Shown here piece by piece: positions 12,690-44,606 of a stretch of 44,674 nt of DNA. How positions within the stretch are numbered: position 1 is the stretch's first letter; each line of letters starts with the position of its first letter. A program made the position numbers and the translations under genes. The notes under the pieces were generated by a model, which saw nothing but the letters and a program-made list of their open reading frames with translations, had not been told where the DNA came from and did not search any database. Origin of the DNA: an uncultured Bacilli bacterium (GTDB lineage: Bacteria; Bacillota_I; Bacilli_A; RF39; UBA660); assembly GCA_944372195.1 (NCBI GenBank), contig CALVYK010000010.1, positions 1-44,674 of the forward strand. Direction: 5' to 3'.

Positions 12690-14096
12690 ATGAATCTACC
12701 AAATTTAAATGATGCAAGAAGAAGAACAAAAGAAAAAGTTGAAATTTTAGATAATTATAAAATAACAGAAGAACAAAAAACATTAGGGTTAAACAAAAAA
12801 TATTTTGTTAAGACTTATGGTTGTCAAATGAATGAACATGATTCTGAAAATATTAAAGCAATATTAGAAGATATGGGATATACTGCTACTGATAATATGG
12901 AAGATGCTAATTTAATTATTTTAAATACATGTGCAATAAGAGAAAATGCTCATAATAAAGTATTTGGCTTATTAGGTAGAATTAAACATATGAAACAATC
13001 TAAAGAAGTTATGGTTGGTTTCGGTGGTTGTATGGCCCAAGAAGAAGTAATAGTTGATGAAATATTAAATAAATATAAATGGATTGATTTTGTTTTTGGT
13101 ACTCATAATATTTATGATTTACCTAATATAATAGAAAAATCAAAAAATAAACAAGAAATAGATGTATTTTCTATTGAAGGTGATGTTATTGAAAATATTC
13201 CAGTTAAGAGAGATAGTAAATATAAAGCTTGGGTTAATATTATGTATGGCTGTGATAAATTCTGTACTTATTGTATAGTACCTTATACTAGAGGAAAACA
13301 AAGAAGTAGATTACCTAAATATATAATTGATGAAGTAAATGAATTGATTAAAGATGGCTATAAAGAAGTAACATTATTAGGTCAAAATGTTAATGCATAT
13401 GGTAAAGACTTGGATATCGATTATAACATGGCTAATTTATTAGAAGATGTTGCTAAAACTAATATCGAAAGAATTAGATTTGTAACTAGTCACCCATGGG
13501 ATTTTAATGATGATATGATCGATGTAATGAGTAAATATAAAAATATTATGCCTTATATTCATTTACCTTTACAATCAGGCTCTGATAAAATATTAAAATT
13601 AATGGGTAGAAGATATACCAAAGAAGAATATATTGATTTATATAATAAATTAAAATCTAAAATACCTAATTGTTCAATTACGACAGATATTATAGTTGGT
13701 TTTCCAAACGAAACTAAAGAAGATTTTCAAGATACATTAGATGTAGTAAATATTTGTAAATATGATGGCGCATTTACTTTTATCTTTTCTCCTCGTATTG
13801 GAACACCAGCTAGTCGCATGAAAGATGATATAACTTTAGAAGAAAAAGAAGAAAGATTACAAACTTTAAATAATTTAGTAAATAAATATTCTAAAGAAAA
13901 TAATGATAAATACTTAAATAAAATAGTACCTGTCTTATTAGAAGATTATAGTAGTAAAAATGGTAATTATTTAAAAGGATATACTGATACTATGAAATTA
14001 GTAAATGTTAAAGCAGATAGTAGTTATTTAGGAAAAATAGTAAATGTCAAAATAACTTCAGTTAAAACATGGAGTATGGATGGCGAAATAATATAA
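12690..14096 (+). CDS. miaB: tRNA-2-methylthio-N6-dimethylallyladenosine synthase MiaB
   Basis: 468 residues. The N-terminal UPF0004 domain has three cluster cysteines (TYGCQMNEHDSE, LNTCAIRENAH, FGGCMAQEE), the radical SAM core has CDKFCTYCIVP (CxxxCxxC) with PYTRGKQRSR after it, and a TRAM domain ends the protein. It thiomethylates i6A37 in tRNAs. The NEHDSE and SHPWDF details favour MiaB over MtaB. ATG at 12690 follows TAGGAAGTGG. metK and its riboswitch begin four bases after the stop, so a miaB transcript must run through the riboswitch. In Bacillus miaB also lies close to cotE, which is found 2.6 kb downstream here. Confidence 0.94.
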   Translation: MNLPNLNDARRRTKEKVEILDNYKITEEQKTLGLNKKYFVKTYGCQMNEHDSENIKAILEDMGYTATDNMEDANLIILNTCAIRENAHNKVFGLLGRIKHMKQSKEVMVGFGGCMAQEEVIVDEILNKYKWIDFVFGTHNIYDLPNIIEKSKNKQEIDVFSIEGDVIENIPVKRDSKYKAWVNIMYGCDKFCTYCIVPYTRGKQRSRLPKYIIDEVNELIKDGYKEVTLLGQNVNAYGKDLDIDYNMANLLEDVAKTNIERIRFVTSHPWDFNDDMIDVMSKYKNIMPYIHLPLQSGSDKILKLMGRRYTKEEYIDLYNKLKSKIPNCSITTDIIVGFPNETKEDFQDTLDVVNICKYDGAFTFIFSPRIGTPASRMKDDITLEEKEERLQTLNNLVNKYSKENNDKYLNKIVPVLLEDYSSKNGNYLKGYTDTMKLVNVKADSSYLGKIVNVKITSVKTWSMDGEII

Positions 14097-14209
14097 TTTT
14101 ATCAAGAATGAGGGAGAGGATTAGCTCAGTGAACTCATACCAACCTATTAAGTTAGGTGGTAAAGCTAATATCGATGAAAGAAAAAGACTCTTTCATGGA
14201 GTCTTTTTT
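14097..14209 (+). promoter_or_regulatory. SAM-responsive riboswitch-like leader with terminator, upstream of metK
   Basis: P1: TTTATC against GATGAAA (14174-14180, one bulge). P2: ATGAG (14108-14112) / CTCAT (14134-14138), with an internal GGA / GTGAA kink-turn-like bulge and inner GAG/CTC. P3: ACCTA (14143-14147) / TAGGT (14154-14158). A pseudoknot pairs ATTAG in the P2 loop (14120-14124) with CTAAT (14166-14170). ATCAAGA, GAGGGA, CAACC, AGGTG, GCTAAT and GAAAGA recall the S-box (SAM-I) core. The P4 arm seems absent. A terminator, AAAAAGACTC (14182-14191) / GAGTCTTTTT (14199-14208), follows P1 directly. Position upstream of SAM synthetase fits feedback control by SAM. Confidence 0.75.
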
Positions 14210-36006: not shown

Positions 36007-36027
36007 TTGAAAAAGGAGAGTGACATC

Positions 36028-36381
36028 GTGAATTTAATAGACAAAATTACTGAAAAACAAATTCGTAACGATATTCCTGAATTTAGAGTTGGGGATACAA
36101 TTAAAGTAAATGTTAAAATTGTTGAAGGTAAAAGAGAAAGAATTCAAGCGTTTGAAGGATTAGTAATGGCTATTCAAGGAAGTGGCGTTAGCAAAAACTT
36201 CATCGTACGTAAAGTATCTGGTGGCGTTGGCGTTGAAAGAACATTCCCAATCAATAGTCCAATTATTGAATCAATTGAAGTTGTTAGAACAGGTAAAGTT
36301 AGACAAGCAAAACTTGGCTATATCAGAACAATGACTAAACAACCAAAAATAAAAGAACGTCGTGTAAAAGAAGCTGCATAA
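36028..36381 (+). CDS. rplS: 50S ribosomal protein L19
   Basis: 117 residues from a GTG start nine bases after AAGGAG; starting at the upstream TTG (36007) would include that [56 protein letters not shown] and IKERRVK follow bacterial L19. Its terminator is AAGCT/AGCTT at the stop codon. Confidence 0.95.
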
Positions 36382-36390: not shown

Positions 36391-36438
36391 GTTTAATTTT
36401 TTCTAAAAATGTTATATAATATTATAGGATGTGATAAG

Positions 36439-36909
36439 ATGAAATTACTAAAAGAATTAATTCCTTATGCCATAATACTAGTTACAGTTATTTTTATTAG
36501 AACATTTATAGTAACTCCAGTTATCGTATCTGGAACTTCTATGGATAATACGTTAAAAAATGGCGAAATATTATTATTAAATAAATTTGATAAATCTTAT
36601 AAAAGATATGATATAGTTGTTTTTGATTATAAAGACTCTAAATTAGTAAAAAGAGTTATTGGTCTACCAGGAGAAACTGTCGAATATAAAGATGGAATTT
36701 TATATATCAATGGAGAAGAAACAACAGATCATTTTGCTTCAATTACTAGTGACTTTAAATTAGATGGGGTAATACCAGAAGGATATTATTTTGTAATGGG
36801 CGATAATCGTAATAATTCTAGCGATAGTAGAATTATTGGATTGATAGATGAAAAAAAAATAAACGGAACAACCACGTTTAGTTTATGGCCAATTAAATTT
36901 GTAAAGTAA
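36439..36909 (+). CDS. lepB: Type I signal peptidase
   Basis: 156 residues. One N-terminal membrane helix, then catalytic Ser34 in VSGTSMDNTL, Lys71 in LVKRVIGLPGE, and MGDNRNNSSDSRIIG (box E). Short like Bacillus SipS/SipW-type enzymes, here with a P-type Ser/Lys dyad. It cleaves secretory signal peptides outside the membrane. An upstream ATG (36409) lies beside the TATAAT and is rejected; TAGGATGTG precedes the ATG at 36439. Confidence 0.93.
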   Translation: MKLLKELIPYAIILVTVIFIRTFIVTPVIVSGTSMDNTLKNGEILLLNKFDKSYKRYDIVVFDYKDSKLVKRVIGLPGETVEYKDGILYINGEETTDHFASITSDFKLDGVIPEGYYFVMGDNRNNSSDSRIIGLIDEKKINGTTTFSLWPIKFVK

Positions 36910-39320: not shown

Positions 39321-40012
39321 ATGATTTCTAAAATTTTCAATTATTTATCAACAATTAGTTGTCTTATTACAATAATTTTATTATATAGTTTTATAATAAT
39401 TAGCGATAGCTTTTATATTAATGGATGTGCAATTTTAATGTTTTTATTAATGTTATTAAATCCTATTGCTAATATATTTAGATTAAATAAAAAAATTATA
39501 AATAATCCTATATTTCATATTTTAATTATTACATTTATTAGTTATATTTCATATATTTTAATAAATAGTATTATAAGATATAAAAATATTTTAAATGAAA
39601 CTTTAGATAAATTATTAGCTATTAATAAATCCGTATTGTTTTTTATGACAATCTTATATATATTTTAATAGCAACTATTTTTATATTATTAATAACATTT
39701 TTATTTAAAAAAAATAATGTAAAATCTAATAAAGATAATTCTAAAATTATGCTTTTAATAATTTTAATAACATCATTAGTACCAATATTAACTCATAGCA
39801 GTGTACCATTAATAAGTGCTGGGTTTAATATTGCATTATTTATCTTTACTGTAATTACTGTTTTTAAATTAAACTTAGTAAATACAACAGATGAATTACG
39901 AAAATATTATTTAATTTTGATTGTTTGCTCATTAGTATCAATTAACCCAATTGCACTTGTTTTATCTATATATCTTTTTTTACAATTAGATACTTTTGGA
40001 TTACATATTTAA
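39321..40012 (+). pseudogene. Frameshifted multi-pass membrane protein
   Basis: Two open pieces, 39321-39668 and a second that becomes readable from about 39650 and includes an ATG at 39749, together make one membrane protein of about 230 residues. The first ends FFMTILYIF; the second frame reads YILIATIFILLITFLFKKN at the same place, so a one-base deletion near 39655-39668 in a TATATATATT run restores a continuous helix. Six or seven hydrophobic segments are seen. The family is unknown. It could be a real inactivation, a phase-variable site or a sequencing error. Confidence 0.65.
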
Positions 40013-40032: not shown

Positions 40033-40068
40033 AGTAGATACAAAAATCTACTTTTTTTGTGGTATAAT
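40033..40068 (+). terminator. Terminator-promoter unit before the DUF1835-like region
   Basis: AGTAGAT (40033-40039) / ATCTACT (40046-40052), T-run to 40058, then GTGGTATAAT with -10 at 40063-40068. It copies the layout and sequence at 38626-38660. Confidence 0.75.
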
Positions 40069-40100
40069 GGTAAGGAATGAAGAAAGTTATTTATGCTTGA

Positions 40101-40142
40101 AAATAAATATTAATTGGTTGATTGCAATTTATTGAACCCCCC
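40101..40142 (+). repeat. Dispersed repeat, copy R1
   Basis: Reads AAATAAATATTAATTGGTTG then ATTGCAATTTATTGAACCCC. It shares the core with R4 at 43747 and, more loosely, R2 and R3. Confidence 0.75.
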
Positions 40143-40195: not shown

Positions 40196-40933
40196 ATGAA
40201 AACATTAGAAATTGTATTTGGAAATTCTTGTTATATGACAATGAAAAACAGTTCACTTAGAAGTAATAATATTTTGTTATGCAATTTACTTCTCAATGTA
40301 GGTGATTTATCAACAATTTATCAATATAGGATAAATATACCAGATGAATTATGTAACGAAAATGGTAACTATTTTTTTGAAAATGAAATAGCAATTATTA
40401 ATGAAGTAATAAAAAGAAAAGATAAAATAAGAATTTGGACAAGTCATTATAATGTTTATTCTTATTTAATTATGTTATATATTTGTAATATTGTTAAGAA
40501 TATCGATTATGAATTATATGTTACGTATAGTGATGAATATAATAATGATAAAAATTGTATTTCTCCTAGTATGATGAATTCAAAAGAGTTAGAAAATTTG
40601 TCTAAACTAGAACATAAATTATCTAAAAATGATATATTAAAATTTTCTGATGTATGGGAAGAACTTGTTAAAAACAATTCTGAAATGAGGGTATTAGAAA
40701 ATGGTATAGTAAAATCAGTATCAATTAATTATTATGATAGTATAATTCTTGATAAACTTAAATTATTAGGGACTGTTAAAGTTTCAAAGTTAGTAGCTAT
40801 GTTGATACAGGAAATATATTTGATGGATATTTTATATGTATATTTAATAAAGAAATTAATAAAAAATGGTAAAATAAAAATTGTAAAAATAAATAATGAT
40901 AGATTTTTTGATAATGTTATTGAACTAGTATAA
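40196..40933 (+). CDS. DUF1835-like protein
   Basis: 245 residues. The start TLEIVFGNSCYMTMKNS, then RKDKIRIWTSHYNVYSYLIM, recalls DUF1835 proteins (HIVFGDS...; IWTGNNANEQ), and the C-terminal helical part resembles the DUF3658 region often attached to it. The function of the family is unknown. TAGGAAGG lies before the ATG. Located just after repeat R1. Confidence 0.6.
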   Translation: MKTLEIVFGNSCYMTMKNSSLRSNNILLCNLLLNVGDLSTIYQYRINIPDELCNENGNYFFENEIAIINEVIKRKDKIRIWTSHYNVYSYLIMLYICNIVKNIDYELYVTYSDEYNNDKNCISPSMMNSKELENLSKLEHKLSKNDILKFSDVWEELVKNNSEMRVLENGIVKSVSINYYDSIILDKLKLLGTVKVSKLVAMLIQEIYLMDILYVYLIKKLIKNGKIKIVKINNDRFFDNVIELV

Positions 40934-41001
40934 TCGTATAAAAAGATAAGATAATTATAGCGTTTAAACTATATTAAAAGTACGAAAGAGAAGTTTATAA
41001 A

Positions 41002-41399
41002 ATGGATAATTCTGAACAAAATAAATTGCTCATTTATAAAAATAAAGATGGCAATGTTGTTATAGATGCTATTTATAAAGATGAAACATTACGATTTTCA
41101 TAGAAATGGATGGTAAAAGTATTTTATGTACATGTTTACGCTATTTCAAAACATTTAAAAAATATATTTGAAGGACAAGAATTAGATGAAAAAGTGGTTG
41201 TTTCCAAAATGTAAAATACCACTAAACATGGAACTATTGAAAGTAAAACTCAGACAACTGAAATAAATGTATATAGTTTAGATGCTATAATAATGGTTGG
41301 ATATAGAATTAATTCAAAAAAGCAACTGATTTTAGAATATGGGAAACAAAAGTATTAGAATAATATATGAAAAAAGGTTTTGTTTTAAATATTGGTTAA
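41002..41399 (+). pseudogene. Degraded N-terminal part of a RhuM-family gene
   Basis: Opens MDNSEQNKLLIYKNKDGNVV as in RhuM, then stops at 41101. After frame changes the homology continues: NIFEGQELDEKVVV, TTKHGTIESKTQT, YSLDAIIMVGYRINSK, TDFRIWETKVLE, YMKKGFVLN. At least three disabling changes (stops and shifts) are visible. The C-terminal half is missing; the next gene is the YhcG nuclease. Confidence 0.82.
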
Positions 41400-41459
41400 A
41401 TAATAGTATTTAAAAATAAAAATGTAAAAATAGAATTTAAGTAAAGGAGATGAAAATTA

Positions 41460-42485
41460 ATGTTAGAAAATGACTTTAAAAATGTTATAAATGAAATAAA
41501 AGAAGATATAAAAAATACACAATTTAAGGCAATGCAAGAAGTAAATAGCAATTTAATTATGTTATATTTTAGATTGGGTAAAATTGTTTCTGAAAATAAA
41601 GCATATGGAAGCAATTTTACAAAAAAAGTTTCTCAAGAATTAAAATTAACATTTCCAAATATGAAAGGTTTTTCTGAAAGAAATATAAGAGCAATGAGAA
41701 TGTTTTATGAAGAGTATGCTGCCGATGAAAAATGGCAACAGCTTGTTGCCAAATTACCTTGGGGTCATAATTTATTACTTATAGAAAAAATAAAAGATAA
41801 AGAGATAAGAAAAATATATGTTGAAGGCGTATTAAAAAATGGTTGGAGTAGGAATGTACTTGCTATCCAAATTGATGGAGGATATCATAATAGAATAGGA
41901 AGTAGTAATAATAATTTTAATCACTTATTACCTCCGGTCAATAGTGACTTAGTAAATAATACAGTTAAAGATCCATATATTTTTGACTTCATAACGTTAA
42001 GAGATAGTTATAAAGAAAAGGAACTAGAATTTGCAATGGTTGAAAAAATAAGAGATGTATTATTGGAATTAGGAAAAGGATTTAGCTTTGTAGGAAATCA
42101 ATATAAAATATCTATGAGTGATAAAGATTATTATATAGATTTATTATTTTACCATTTAGAATTAAGATGTTATATTGTTGTTGAACTTAAAGCAACTGAA
42201 TTTAAGCCAGAATATATAGGACAGCTTGGATTTTATGTAACAGCAGTAGATGAAACTTTAAAAAAAGAATACGATAATCAAACAATTGGGTTACTTTTAT
42301 GTAAGGAAAAGGATAGATTAACTGTAGATTGGTCTTTAAAATCAACAAATGTACCAATTGGAGTATCAACATACAATGTAAAAGAAAAACTACCAGATAA
42401 TATTATGAGCATGTTACCAACAGAAGAAGATATTAATCTTCATATTGATATAAAAGAAGAGAAAGTGGAAATAGATGACGAATAA
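41460..42485 (+). CDS. YhcG/DUF1016 family PD-(D/E)xK nuclease
   Basis: 341 residues. The N-terminal DUF1016 domain (about 1-150) shows NLIMLYFRLGKIVSE, FPNMKGFSERNIRAMRMFYE and LPWGHNLLLIEKIKD. The C-terminal nuclease domain has DKDYYIDLLFYH (catalytic Asp) and RCYIVVELKATEFKPEYIGQ (ExK). The family is frequent in defence and mobile islands and its substrate is unsettled. AAAGGAGATG precedes the ATG. Its end runs directly into repeat R2. Confidence 0.92.
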   Translation: MLENDFKNVINEIKEDIKNTQFKAMQEVNSNLIMLYFRLGKIVSENKAYGSNFTKKVSQELKLTFPNMKGFSERNIRAMRMFYEEYAADEKWQQLVAKLPWGHNLLLIEKIKDKEIRKIYVEGVLKNGWSRNVLAIQIDGGYHNRIGSSNNNFNHLLPPVNSDLVNNTVKDPYIFDFITLRDSYKEKELEFAMVEKIRDVLLELGKGFSFVGNQYKISMSDKDYYIDLLFYHLELRCYIVVELKATEFKPEYIGQLGFYVTAVDETLKKEYDNQTIGLLLCKEKDRLTVDWSLKSTNVPIGVSTYNVKEKLPDNIMSMLPTEEDINLHIDIKEEKVEIDDE

Positions 42486-42502
42486 CGAAGAAAATTATCA
42501 AA

Positions 42503-42545
42503 AAATCAATATTAATTGATTGATTACAATTTAATTAAGAACATG
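42503..42545 (+). repeat. Dispersed repeat, copy R2
   Basis: AATATTAATTGATTGATTAC then AATTTAATTAAGAACATG. Nearly identical to R3; the pair flanks the deaminase gene in direct orientation. Confidence 0.8.
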
Positions 42546-42562
42546 GAAAAAAGGTGGTTAAA

Positions 42563-43015
42563 ATGAATGATAAATTTATGACAATAGCAATTGAAGAATC
42601 AAAAAAAGCGAATTGTGCTAAAGGTAAAGTTGGCGCAGTTATTGTTTTAAATGGTAAGATATTAGGTAGGGGTAATAACTCTGTACCTAAAGGATGTATA
42701 CCGTGTACAATTGATACTTGTTTAAGAAAAAAATATAATTTAAAAAGTGGAGAAAGACAAGAAATATGTAGGGTTGTTCATGCGGAACAAAATGCTATAT
42801 TAAATGCATTGAAAAACGGTTATAATTTGATTAATTCTACAATTTGTGTGACAAAATCACCTTGTATGATATGTGCAAAGTTAATAATAAATGTTGGAAT
42901 AAAAAAAGTAATTTATGCAAGTAAATATCCAGATGAAGAAGCTTTTAAAATTTTGAAAGAAGCAGGGGTTAAAACTGAATATTTTGAAATAAATAAGATT
43001 AAGGAATTGATATAA
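42563..43015 (+). CDS. Cytidine/deoxycytidylate deaminase family protein
   Basis: 150 residues. Zinc site: VVHAEQNAI (His, catalytic Glu) and TKSPCMICAKLII (PCxxC). The region GRGNNSVPKGCIPCTIDTCL with extra cysteines is characteristic of ComEB/dCMP deaminases. It should deaminate dCMP or a related nucleotide. ATG at 42563 follows AAAGGTGG. Bounded by the direct repeats R2 and R3, so it has the form of a single-gene cassette. Deaminases in defence islands can also deplete nucleotides, but nothing here shows that. Confidence 0.88.
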   Translation: MNDKFMTIAIEESKKANCAKGKVGAVIVLNGKILGRGNNSVPKGCIPCTIDTCLRKKYNLKSGERQEICRVVHAEQNAILNALKNGYNLINSTICVTKSPCMICAKLIINVGIKKVIYASKYPDEEAFKILKEAGVKTEYFEINKIKELI

Positions 43016-43020
43016 ATGAA

Positions 43021-43062
43021 TGAAAATATAAATTGATTGATTATGATTTAATTAAGAACATG
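43021..43062 (+). repeat. Dispersed repeat, copy R3
   Basis: TGAAAATATAAATTGATTGA then TTATGATTTAATTAAGAACA. It begins a few bases after the deaminase stop codon and aligns with R2 over about 40 bases with few differences. Confidence 0.8.
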
Positions 43063-43097
43063 TAAAATTTAGTTTTAATGTTGCCTAATTTGATTAA

Positions 43098-43388
43098 TTA
43101 ATATTTGCGCTAATAATTATTTAACTAAAGAAAAATTAGAAAGTTTAGAACGTATTATTTCACCTTCTTAGATTTAGTAGAAAATAGAGCAAGAAGGAAC
43201 ATAGCAATAACTAAGAAAAATTGGGCAATTAGAATTGATAAGTATTATTAGATGATGATAGAGATATATTAAAAGATGCATGTAAAATATTACATGAAAC
43301 AGACTGTGATAAAGATTTAACAGAATTTGAAAAGTATAAAATAAAACAAGATAAATTATATAAATCAGACTTTGATTTATTGATGTAA
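43098..43388 (+). pseudogene. Degraded C-terminal part of a RhuM-family gene
   Basis: Reading across two frameshifts gives ANNYLTKEKLESLERIIS, FLDLVENRARRNIAIT, NWAIRIDKY, LLDDDRDILKDACK and LTEFEKYKIKQDKLYKSDFD, the C-terminal third of RhuM. The last ~45 bases are almost the same as the end of the RhuM-like gene at 44540-44585. It stops at 43388. Confidence 0.8.
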
Positions 43389-43413
43389 GAAAGTAATAAA
43401 GGAGGTAGTAGCA

Positions 43414-43740
43414 ATGTTTAGTAAGGAAGAAAAGCAAATAAAAGAAGTCATAATAGCTTCAAGAAGATTAGAAGAATATTTATGGGGAGAATTTAATGGT
43501 CAGTGGAATATAGAAGAATGGAGAAGAATGTTTAGAAAAAGAATTAAAAAAATAGATGATATAGATGTAAACAATCCTCATGCAATTATAGAAATGAGAA
43601 AAAGACTTATGCAAAATGCCGCTTTAAGTGTAGCGTTGATGAAAATTTTGGATACAAAAGGAATACCAACAAATGAATGTAAGATTCCATCAAATTTACC
43701 TCAGTACGCTATAGAAAAGGAATGTGATTTAAATGAATGA
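43414..43740 (+). CDS. Small helical protein of unknown function
   Basis: 108 residues, charged and helical (EEKQIKEVIIASRRLEEYL, WNIEEWRRMFRKRIKKID). Two tryptophan-rich spots (YLWGEFNGQWNIEEW) stand out. No family recognised. AAAGGAGGTAG precedes the ATG, so it is probably expressed. It follows the RhuM remnant and ends at repeat R4. Confidence 0.65.
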   Translation: MFSKEEKQIKEVIIASRRLEEYLWGEFNGQWNIEEWRRMFRKRIKKIDDIDVNNPHAIIEMRKRLMQNAALSVALMKILDTKGIPTNECKIPSNLPQYAIEKECDLNE

Positions 43741-43807
43741 TAATAAAACAAATATTAATTGCTTGATACCAATTTATTTAACCCCTCCAAGAAATCCTTA
43801 TAAATAA
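43733..43807 (+). other. Possible 24-residue ORF coupled to the preceding gene
   Basis: ATG at 43733 overlaps the preceding stop codon (ATGAATGA) and opens a frame of 24 codons, MNDNKTNINCLIPIYLTPPR and NPYK, lying across repeat R4. Copies R2 and R3 also begin with an ATG at the end of the upstream gene but stop after NIN. It may be a remnant of a once longer gene or a chance frame. Confidence 0.3.
43747..43788 (+). repeat. Dispersed repeat, copy R4
   Basis: ACAAATATTAATTGCTTGAT then ACCAATTTATTTAACCCCTC. It matches R1 best. The TTGATACCA-N6-TTAACCCC part recurs at 43909-43930. Confidence 0.78.
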
Positions 43808-43961
43808 AGGGTTTGCGAGCATATAGATCTTACACGTTTTTTCAAAAAAACAGTAAAAAATAATAAAAAGCAATCAAAAATAGTTAAAAATGGGGTGTTT
43901 GTTTTTAGTTGATACCACAAGGTTAACCCCATAATATTTTGACGAGAAAGGAGAATAATAA
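43789..43961. other. Structured non-coding stretch before the RhuM-like gene
   Basis: It holds the second TTGATACCA-N5-TTAACCCC motif (43909-43930) and an inverted repeat ATGGGGT (43890-43896) / ACCCCAT (43926-43932). No promoter with both boxes was found and no plausible gene on either strand. AGAAAGGAG at 43944-43952 is the RBS of the next gene. Confidence 0.5.
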
Positions 43962-44606
43962 ATGGCTGAAAAAGATTTACAAATAACAAATCATGATTTT
44001 TTAATATATAGAGATTCAAACAATGATGTTAAAGTTAGTGTAATGTTAATAAATAATGATATATGGCTAACTCAAAATTTAATCGCAGAATTATTTGGTG
44101 TGGGAAGAAGTACAATAACTGAACACATCAATAATATATTAAATAGTGGTGAACTTACCGAAAATAACACCGTCGGAAAAACCGACGTTGATCATTCTAA
44201 AAAAACTGTAAAGATATATAATAGGGTAGATGCTGAAAAAGAACATATGGGACTTACAAATTGGAAAAATTCACCTGATGGTCCAATTTATAGGTATGAT
44301 GTTGATATTGCAAAAAACTATTTAAACGAAAAGGAATTAAAAGATTTAAATAGGATTGTCACTATGTATTTAGATTATGCAGAATTACAAGCTGAAAATC
44401 ATAATGCAATGACTATGAAAGATTGGATAGAAAAATTAAATGTATTCTTACAATTTAATGGAAAAGAAATTCTTCATAATGCTGGGAAAATATCTGCTAA
44501 GGTCGCACAAGAATTAGCATACAGAGAATATGATAAGTTTAAAGTTAAACAAGATAAATTATATAAATCAGATTTTGATTTATTATTAGAAGAAATCGAT
44601 AAATAG
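43962..44606 (+). CDS. RhuM-family protein with an internal in-frame deletion
   Basis: 214 residues, against about 330-345 for intact RhuM. The N-terminal HTH-like domain is present (DIWLTQNLIAELFGVGRSTI, NNILNSGELTENNTVGKTD), and at KTVKIYNR it jumps directly to VDAEKEHMGLTNWKNSPDG, which is near residue 220 of the family. The YNLD-x-IISVGYRV and DYFDELLERIR-type centre is gone. The C-terminal DVDIAKNYLNEKELKDLNRI and EYDKFKVKQDKLYKSDFD are kept. AGAAAGGAG gives a good start. RhuM genes are frequent in genomic islands; their role is unclear. The product may be non-functional or an altered DNA-binding variant. Confidence 0.85.
   Translation: MAEKDLQITNHDFLIYRDSNNDVKVSVMLINNDIWLTQNLIAELFGVGRSTITEHINNILNSGELTENNTVGKTDVDHSKKTVKIYNRVDAEKEHMGLTNWKNSPDGPIYRYDVDIAKNYLNEKELKDLNRIVTMYLDYAELQAENHNAMTMKDWIEKLNVFLQFNGKEILHNAGKISAKVAQELAYREYDKFKVKQDKLYKSDFDLLLEEIDK

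Follow-up and report, generated by a model that had tools for sequence, protein, structure and literature searches.

The window is a 44.7-kb stretch of DNA and constitutes an entire contig in a draft genome of 1.28 Mb. Its right end is most likely a cassette array targeted to rbgA by serine recombinases, resembling an integron in its working and SCC in its build, with a presumed role of these enzymes as catalysts. Cassettes of this kind occupy a single target, are separated by joints of common anatomy whose two halves are inherited independently, and are exchanged between species with breakpoints at the joint core. The original prediction for this DNA had described a deaminase gene flanked exactly by two near-identical direct repeats, and the finding goes beyond that: rbgA is the site of an integron-like array, whose likely movers are serine recombinases.

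The two predicted repeats, R2 and R3, were indeed nearly identical (91% over 43 nt). Within the 44.7-kb window, the R2 sequence (AATATTAATTGATTGATTACAATTTAATTAAGAACATG, 42508-42545) matched only itself and R3 (43025-43062, 3 mismatches), and none of 100 dinucleotide shuffles of the window matched this 38-nt sequence. Only the deaminase open reading frame (ATG at 42563, stop at 43015) and its ribosome-binding site were found between them, as expected. R1 (40106) and R4 (43751) have a 28-nt core in common at 86-89%; the four copies (40106, 42508, 43025, and 43751) share one direction and cluster at the window's right end. Further copies were observed in the same genome on two short contigs (C45:3583 and C50:147), all forward, and the reversed repeat pattern gave no match in this genome. 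Blast matches at C17 and C10:40878 look like A+T-rich chance similarity and were discarded. The subtype that had been proposed to set R2 and R3 apart (TTTAATTAAGAACATG) does exist but is shared more widely: it belongs to the several types of right half that occur in many cassettes of relatives. Judging from the copies in the same genome and the joints in related genomes, R2 and R3 are two among many joints rather than a special bracketing pair, and a repeat pair specific to the deaminase was rejected on these grounds.

Each repeat is a recombination joint: its left half copies the 5′ end of rbgA, and its right half forms the left end of the following cassette. The left half contains a ribosome-binding site, a start codon, and codons for "MN..NINW"; joint copies read MNENKTNINW after the ribosome-binding site, then LI.I, and usually then a stop, and the last unit in each row reads MNENKTNINWYPGHMAKTKR, which is the start of RbgA/YlqF. 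Among 311 left-half copies, the Ile codon was ATA, ATC, or ATT in 305 and ATG in none, the second Asn was AAC or AAT in 309, and an in-frame start was kept in 285. Since the codons and the start are kept across these copies, selection has maintained the left half as the N-terminus of RbgA. A reading in which the copies yield a conserved small peptide in its own right was rejected, the "peptide" being this N-terminus.

The right half follows the core with TTGAT or related letters and then one of several types (TTAAGAACAT, GTCAAGACC, CTAGCC, TTTAACCCC, and TTTAAACCCC). Either the gene begins about 45 nt further on or a leader precedes it, and the distances from the joint to the first open reading frame fell mainly into two groups, 40-60 and 180-220 nt. 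At its far end, the leader has the right-half motif again, in direct orientation; this second copy lies about 158 bp into leader-bearing cassettes, and in most of the 30 strongest cases its distance from the start of the joint was 167-169 nt. The type of this second copy tended to match that of the first in the same cassette (score 22.4 within the cassette, against 18.5 with other cassettes and 17.5 with the reversed control). When 317 joints were compared, the letters left of the core were predicted by the left context and those right of the core by the right context; AAYTG was common to nearly all of them, and breakpoints fell between -4 and +6. Because each side of the core follows its own context and AAYTG, the core shared by attP and attB, is nearly universal, the crossover probably lies at AAYTG|N, give or take a few bases.

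The features of the array in the window are listed in Table 1. In R1, the native rbgA promoter (TATAAT) and the displaced native 5′ end (..KININW) are joined to a cassette left end (TTGATTGCAATTTATTGAACCCC). The left half of R2 is a tiny open reading frame, MTNNEENYQKININ and a stop, reproducing the rbgA 5′ end with TGA as the W codon; it is followed by the core AATTG and the right half TTGATTACAATTTAATTAAGAACATG in a leaderless joint. R3 likewise consists of a tiny open reading frame, MNENIN and a stop (a copy of the rbgA 5′ end, W codon TGA), and the right half TTGATTATGATTTAATTAAGAACATG, and R4 of a tiny open reading frame, MNDNKTNINCLIPIY.., and the right half TTGATACCAATTTATTTAACCCC; the R4 leader terminates in a repeat of the right-half motif in the same direction (TTGATACCACAAGGTTAACCCC, 43909-43930).

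Table 1 Features of the cassette array and its left flank in the window
Feature	Position	Strand	Basis and remarks
rplS (L19)	36007-36381	+	Sequence; with lepB, the fixed left flank of the rbgA locus
lepB	36409-36909	+	Sequence; with rplS, the fixed left flank of the rbgA locus
R1, leftmost attL	40060..40140	+	Terminator/promoter same in congener G180; repeat comparison
DUF1835/DUF3658 gene, first cassette	40196..40933	+	Pfam
Decayed RhuM-like remnant	40985..41400	+	Similar by reading to the C50 RhuM gene (L014); no open frame
DUF1016/YhcG PDDEXK nuclease gene	41460..42485	+	Pfam, E 8.8e-62 and 3e-37
R2	42475..42550	+	Repeats; compared with 311 copies
Deaminase cassette gene	42563..43015	+	PF00383, E 2.4e-23; RBS AAGGTGG at about 42551
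R3	43016..43062	+	Repeats, shuffles
RhuM gene 3′ remnant	43080..43400	+	Direct repeat D4, 84% to 44525-44603
108-aa gene, cassette cargo	43414..43740	+	No Pfam or NCBIfam match
R4	43733..43778	+	Repeats
R4 leader, about 150 nt	43779..43930	+	Similar spacing (+155-169) in other genomes
RhuM-family gene, internal deletion	43962..44606	+	PF13310, E 2.8e-40; blastp to G180, 92-93%

This array is partly decayed, because R2 and R3 have TGA in the Trp codon. The RhuM remnants are further decay; the last RhuM gene in the window aligns to residues 1-87 and 204-314 of the 341-aa homologue in the congener G180, with about 117 internal residues gone. Pfam and NCBIfam searches gave no match for the 108-aa gene. 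Homologues of the DUF1835/DUF3658 cassette (cluster 6) were found directly before rbgA in S260 and also in S296. The order rplS-lepB-(array)-rbgA is the same in G195, G299, G323, and G198. The window contig stops before rbgA, and since rbgA was not found anywhere in the draft genome, the contig probably breaks inside the array. To the left of R1, two adjacent open reading frames at 39321-40012 each correspond to half of a single protein whose intact form is found in G180 (84-89% identity), indicating that the copy in the window is frameshifted.

Related genomes were compared. The joint core, with up to three mismatches, was present in 79 of 386 genomes of the family; a longer joint pattern was present in 80 of 288 genomes, which had been drawn at order level but all belonged to this family, and the reversed-pattern control gave no match. 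Rows of same-strand joints comprised 17-18 in G155 (about 14 kb), 14 each in G233 and G122, 11 in G377, and 9 within 8.4 kb of G316, and the joints were all on one strand within a contig. In 18 of 18 cases with both on the same contig, rbgA lay downstream of the joints on the same strand, 0.4-11.4 kb away; in the remaining pairs, joints and rbgA were on separate contigs, and in several of these rbgA stood at the extreme end of its contig. A repeat scattered over the genome without relation to gene ends, which would have spoken against the predicted cassette, was not what we observed: copies of the repeat sit where cassettes end, at a single locus upstream of rbgA. Spread beyond the family was judged solely from a scan of 84,980 GTDB species with the exact pattern, which returned 101 stretches, nearly all from MAGs labelled as Bacilli, Tenericutes, Erysipelotrichaceae, or Bacillales of the gut or rumen. 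The exact joint pattern had no match in IMG/VR, and a phage origin of the repeat was rejected for this reason.

From all loci, 209 distinct cassettes were cut, with a median of 954 bp and one open reading frame in 142 of them. Several were 91-99% identical across species while their neighbours were unrelated. A 1,100-bp cassette was 99% identical between G233 and S255, one of 2,244 bp was 99% identical between G184 and S279, and one of 705 bp was 95% identical between G233 and S284, each with flanks at background. The per-position identity of such shared cassettes rises at the left core and ends at the right core (AAYTG|). The cargo includes acetyltransferase, methyltransferase, NUDIX, and HAD genes, and RhuM, DUF1016, and Bro-N genes are candidate defence cargo.

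The deaminase domain has a dCMP/cytidine deaminase fold, and reading of the sequence shows both zinc motifs, HAE and PCxxC, to be intact; NCBIfam scores were weak, below the cut-offs of named deaminases. The gene was found in three genera and in three different contexts. In G064 (84% identity), it stands behind a RhuM gene and a small gene, directly before rbgA; in G028 (78-79%, broken by TGA), it stands behind RhuM and NUDIX genes and before another joint. In the congeners G180 and G344, the homologous DUF1016 gene lies directly before rbgA with no deaminase between them. Hence the gene is not fixed among unchanged neighbours, and the reading as a mobile cassette, whose ends the repeat marks, was supported. 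That the mobile unit is a single gene held only in part: it can be one gene, but it can also hold several, as with the deaminase of G028 and G064, which is part of multi-gene cassettes. These multi-gene cassettes show that gene content changes by other routes too.

We also examined what lies between the arrays and rbgA. In G155, a conjugative element of about 39 kb separates the cassette row from rbgA, and its last two genes encode large serine recombinases (566 and 522 aa) in which the domains PF00239, PF07508, and PF13408 were identified. All nine relatives of the 522-aa recombinase (at least 53% identity, itself included) sit in such a pair, of ~570 and ~522 aa in conjugative elements, which are inserted at the same rbgA codons as the cassettes; the pair stands directly before rbgA in eight of the nine, and in the ninth before a joint with which a second conjugative element begins. 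Shorter relatives, of about 410 aa, are encoded by the cassette nearest to rbgA in genomes including G091 and G184, and a 357-aa one occupies this position in G233. Related genomes thus encode a PF00239 and PF07508 (plus PF13408) protein beside the attachment site, a position that the window contig does not reach. The second of the conjugative elements in G114 shares the cassettes' left end (joint), leader, and second core. Their position beside the joint and the ends common with the cassettes tie the recombinases to the joint, and the catalysts are presumed to be the large serine recombinases of conjugative elements or of recombinase-bearing cassettes. Of 72 genomes searched for close relatives of the 522-aa recombinase, 18 had one; the genome of the window gave none at the search threshold, and the array-bearing G198, G034, G122, and G226 gave no PF07508 match. 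As such relatives are missing from many array genomes, many arrays look stranded. At L333 (G114:C10, 6056-10527) and L220, two conjugative elements stand in tandem at rbgA with different serine-recombinase pairs. Inside the G155 element (L128:8534-12601), restriction-specificity-like genes are split around a 321-aa tyrosine recombinase, an arrangement resembling phase-variable hsdS loci.

We propose the following mechanism. Site-specific recombination would insert cassettes in succession at a single attB within rbgA, formed by the codons for Ile-Asn-Trp in INW|YPGHM. A cassette consists of a right half P′ (TTGAT..TTTA..), with or without the leader of ~150 nt, the gene or genes, and a left half P, comprising a ribosome-binding site, a start codon, the codons of the RbgA N-terminus, and AAYTG. 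Insertion would cut rbgA after AAYTG, and the P half of the cassette would supply rbgA with a new ribosome-binding site, start, and N-terminus, so that the essential gene survives. A new attB-like site (P and YPGHM) would thereby arise for the next insertion, and the newest cassette would adjoin rbgA. Under this scheme, internal joints are P.P′ hybrids, the left edge (R1) is the native 5′ end joined to P′, and the right edge is P joined to rbgA. The recombinases (a pair of ~570 and ~522 aa, or one of ~410 aa) may act in trans on recombinase-less cassettes such as that of the deaminase, and single cassettes may be excised by recombination of joint with joint. On balance, we favour a broader view as well, in which the system is the serine-recombinase counterpart of the integron: a family-wide capture platform of gut Bacilli, in which recombinases of rbgA-specific conjugative elements gather and reshuffle single-gene cassettes, each with a spare rbgA 5′ end, and the second covarying core (~158 bp) takes part in the reaction or its control.

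Other explanations were weighed against the serine-recombinase reading. Short repeats are common under a strong A+T bias, yet chance or local duplication around the deaminase gene is hardly credible, given the shuffles described above and a joint present in dozens of genomes with a control of zero. A classical integron (IntI, attC) or its remnant (CALIN) is equally improbable. The arrays do form tandem, one-orientation rows of short, mostly one-gene, exchangeable cassettes, with accessory cargo such as acetyltransferase and NUDIX genes that is shared between species in new order at one fixed locus. However, no IntI was found beside the arrays of 19 genomes, on which ground the classical integron was rejected; large serine recombinases adjoin the site instead. 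Furthermore, the joint has a short core with unlike halves and the joint and leader motifs are direct copies, whereas the attC hairpin has inverted R″/L″...L′/R′ halves, and the left half here is rbgA coding sequence, each joint rebuilding the 5′ end of an essential gene. Homologous recombination between joints (for example after DNA uptake), with the joints as remnants of old integrations and no dedicated recombinase, would be favoured by the 40-200 bp of similarity that joints and leaders provide and by the many arrays without a recombinase; we regard it as improbable, since breakpoints cluster at one short core, the joint halves have separate histories, and the joint has one place in rbgA with recombinase genes adjoining.

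Somewhat less improbable, though still unlikely, is that a tyrosine recombinase (a Tn5253-type integrase, or resident XerC/XerD as with pdif) moves the cassettes and that the serine recombinases belong only to the conjugative elements. In pdif modules, small gene modules lie between short recombination sites and have no recombinase of their own, as here; the joints described here differ in having one orientation and in being located at one chromosomal gene with its coding start. Tyrosine recombinases (PF00589), mostly Xer-like, were present in all 19 array genomes checked, but none lay beside the array except one after topA in G198. G219, G233, and G271 have two each, none beside the array, and in the complete genome G219 these two, both far from the array, are the only ones. 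Serine recombinases, in contrast, stand directly at the joint, and conjugative elements with the serine pair have the cassettes' left end. Tn5253 inserts after nt 20 of rbgA by a tyrosine integrase (PMC8571831, PMC4701971), and its duplicated end restores the rbgA reading frame (PMC8571831). The streptococcal ICEs thus resemble the present system in their place in rbgA and the restored frame, but they are single large ICEs with a tyrosine integrase and form no arrays of small cassettes; the cassettes here lack a tyrosine integrase and a conjugation module, and the G155 element ends in the serine pair. In its paired large serine recombinases beside the site, its one site in a conserved gene, its tandem composites, and its recombinase-less members, the system with serine recombinases as movers is similar to SCC/SCCmec (CcrA/CcrB), although SCC is found at the 3′ end of rlmH and measures tens of kb, compared with the 5′ end of rbgA and about 1 kb for the cassettes. 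The recombinases are of the same superfamily as Ccr, yet they are no CcrA or CcrB by model cut-offs (94 and 92 bits against 900 for CcrB, 69 and 56 against 700 for CcrA).

Literature searches of open-licence papers returned no description of serine-recombinase cassette arrays. If the proposed reading is true, uncultured Bacilli of the gut and rumen have evolved gene-cassette capture outside the integrons, with another recombinase class, and this would explain part of the accessory gene content of these small-genome gut bacteria as well as the frequent assembly breaks at rbgA. It would also provide a new pair of att sites with recombinases for genome engineering. Elsewhere in the window, a SAM (S-box) riboswitch was identified at 14096-14181 (Rfam RF00162, 52 bits). 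Three consecutive tyrosine recombinase genes, resembling a RIT trio, were observed in the same genome (G000:C2:30568-32901) and in a relative (G297:C24:1589-3954).
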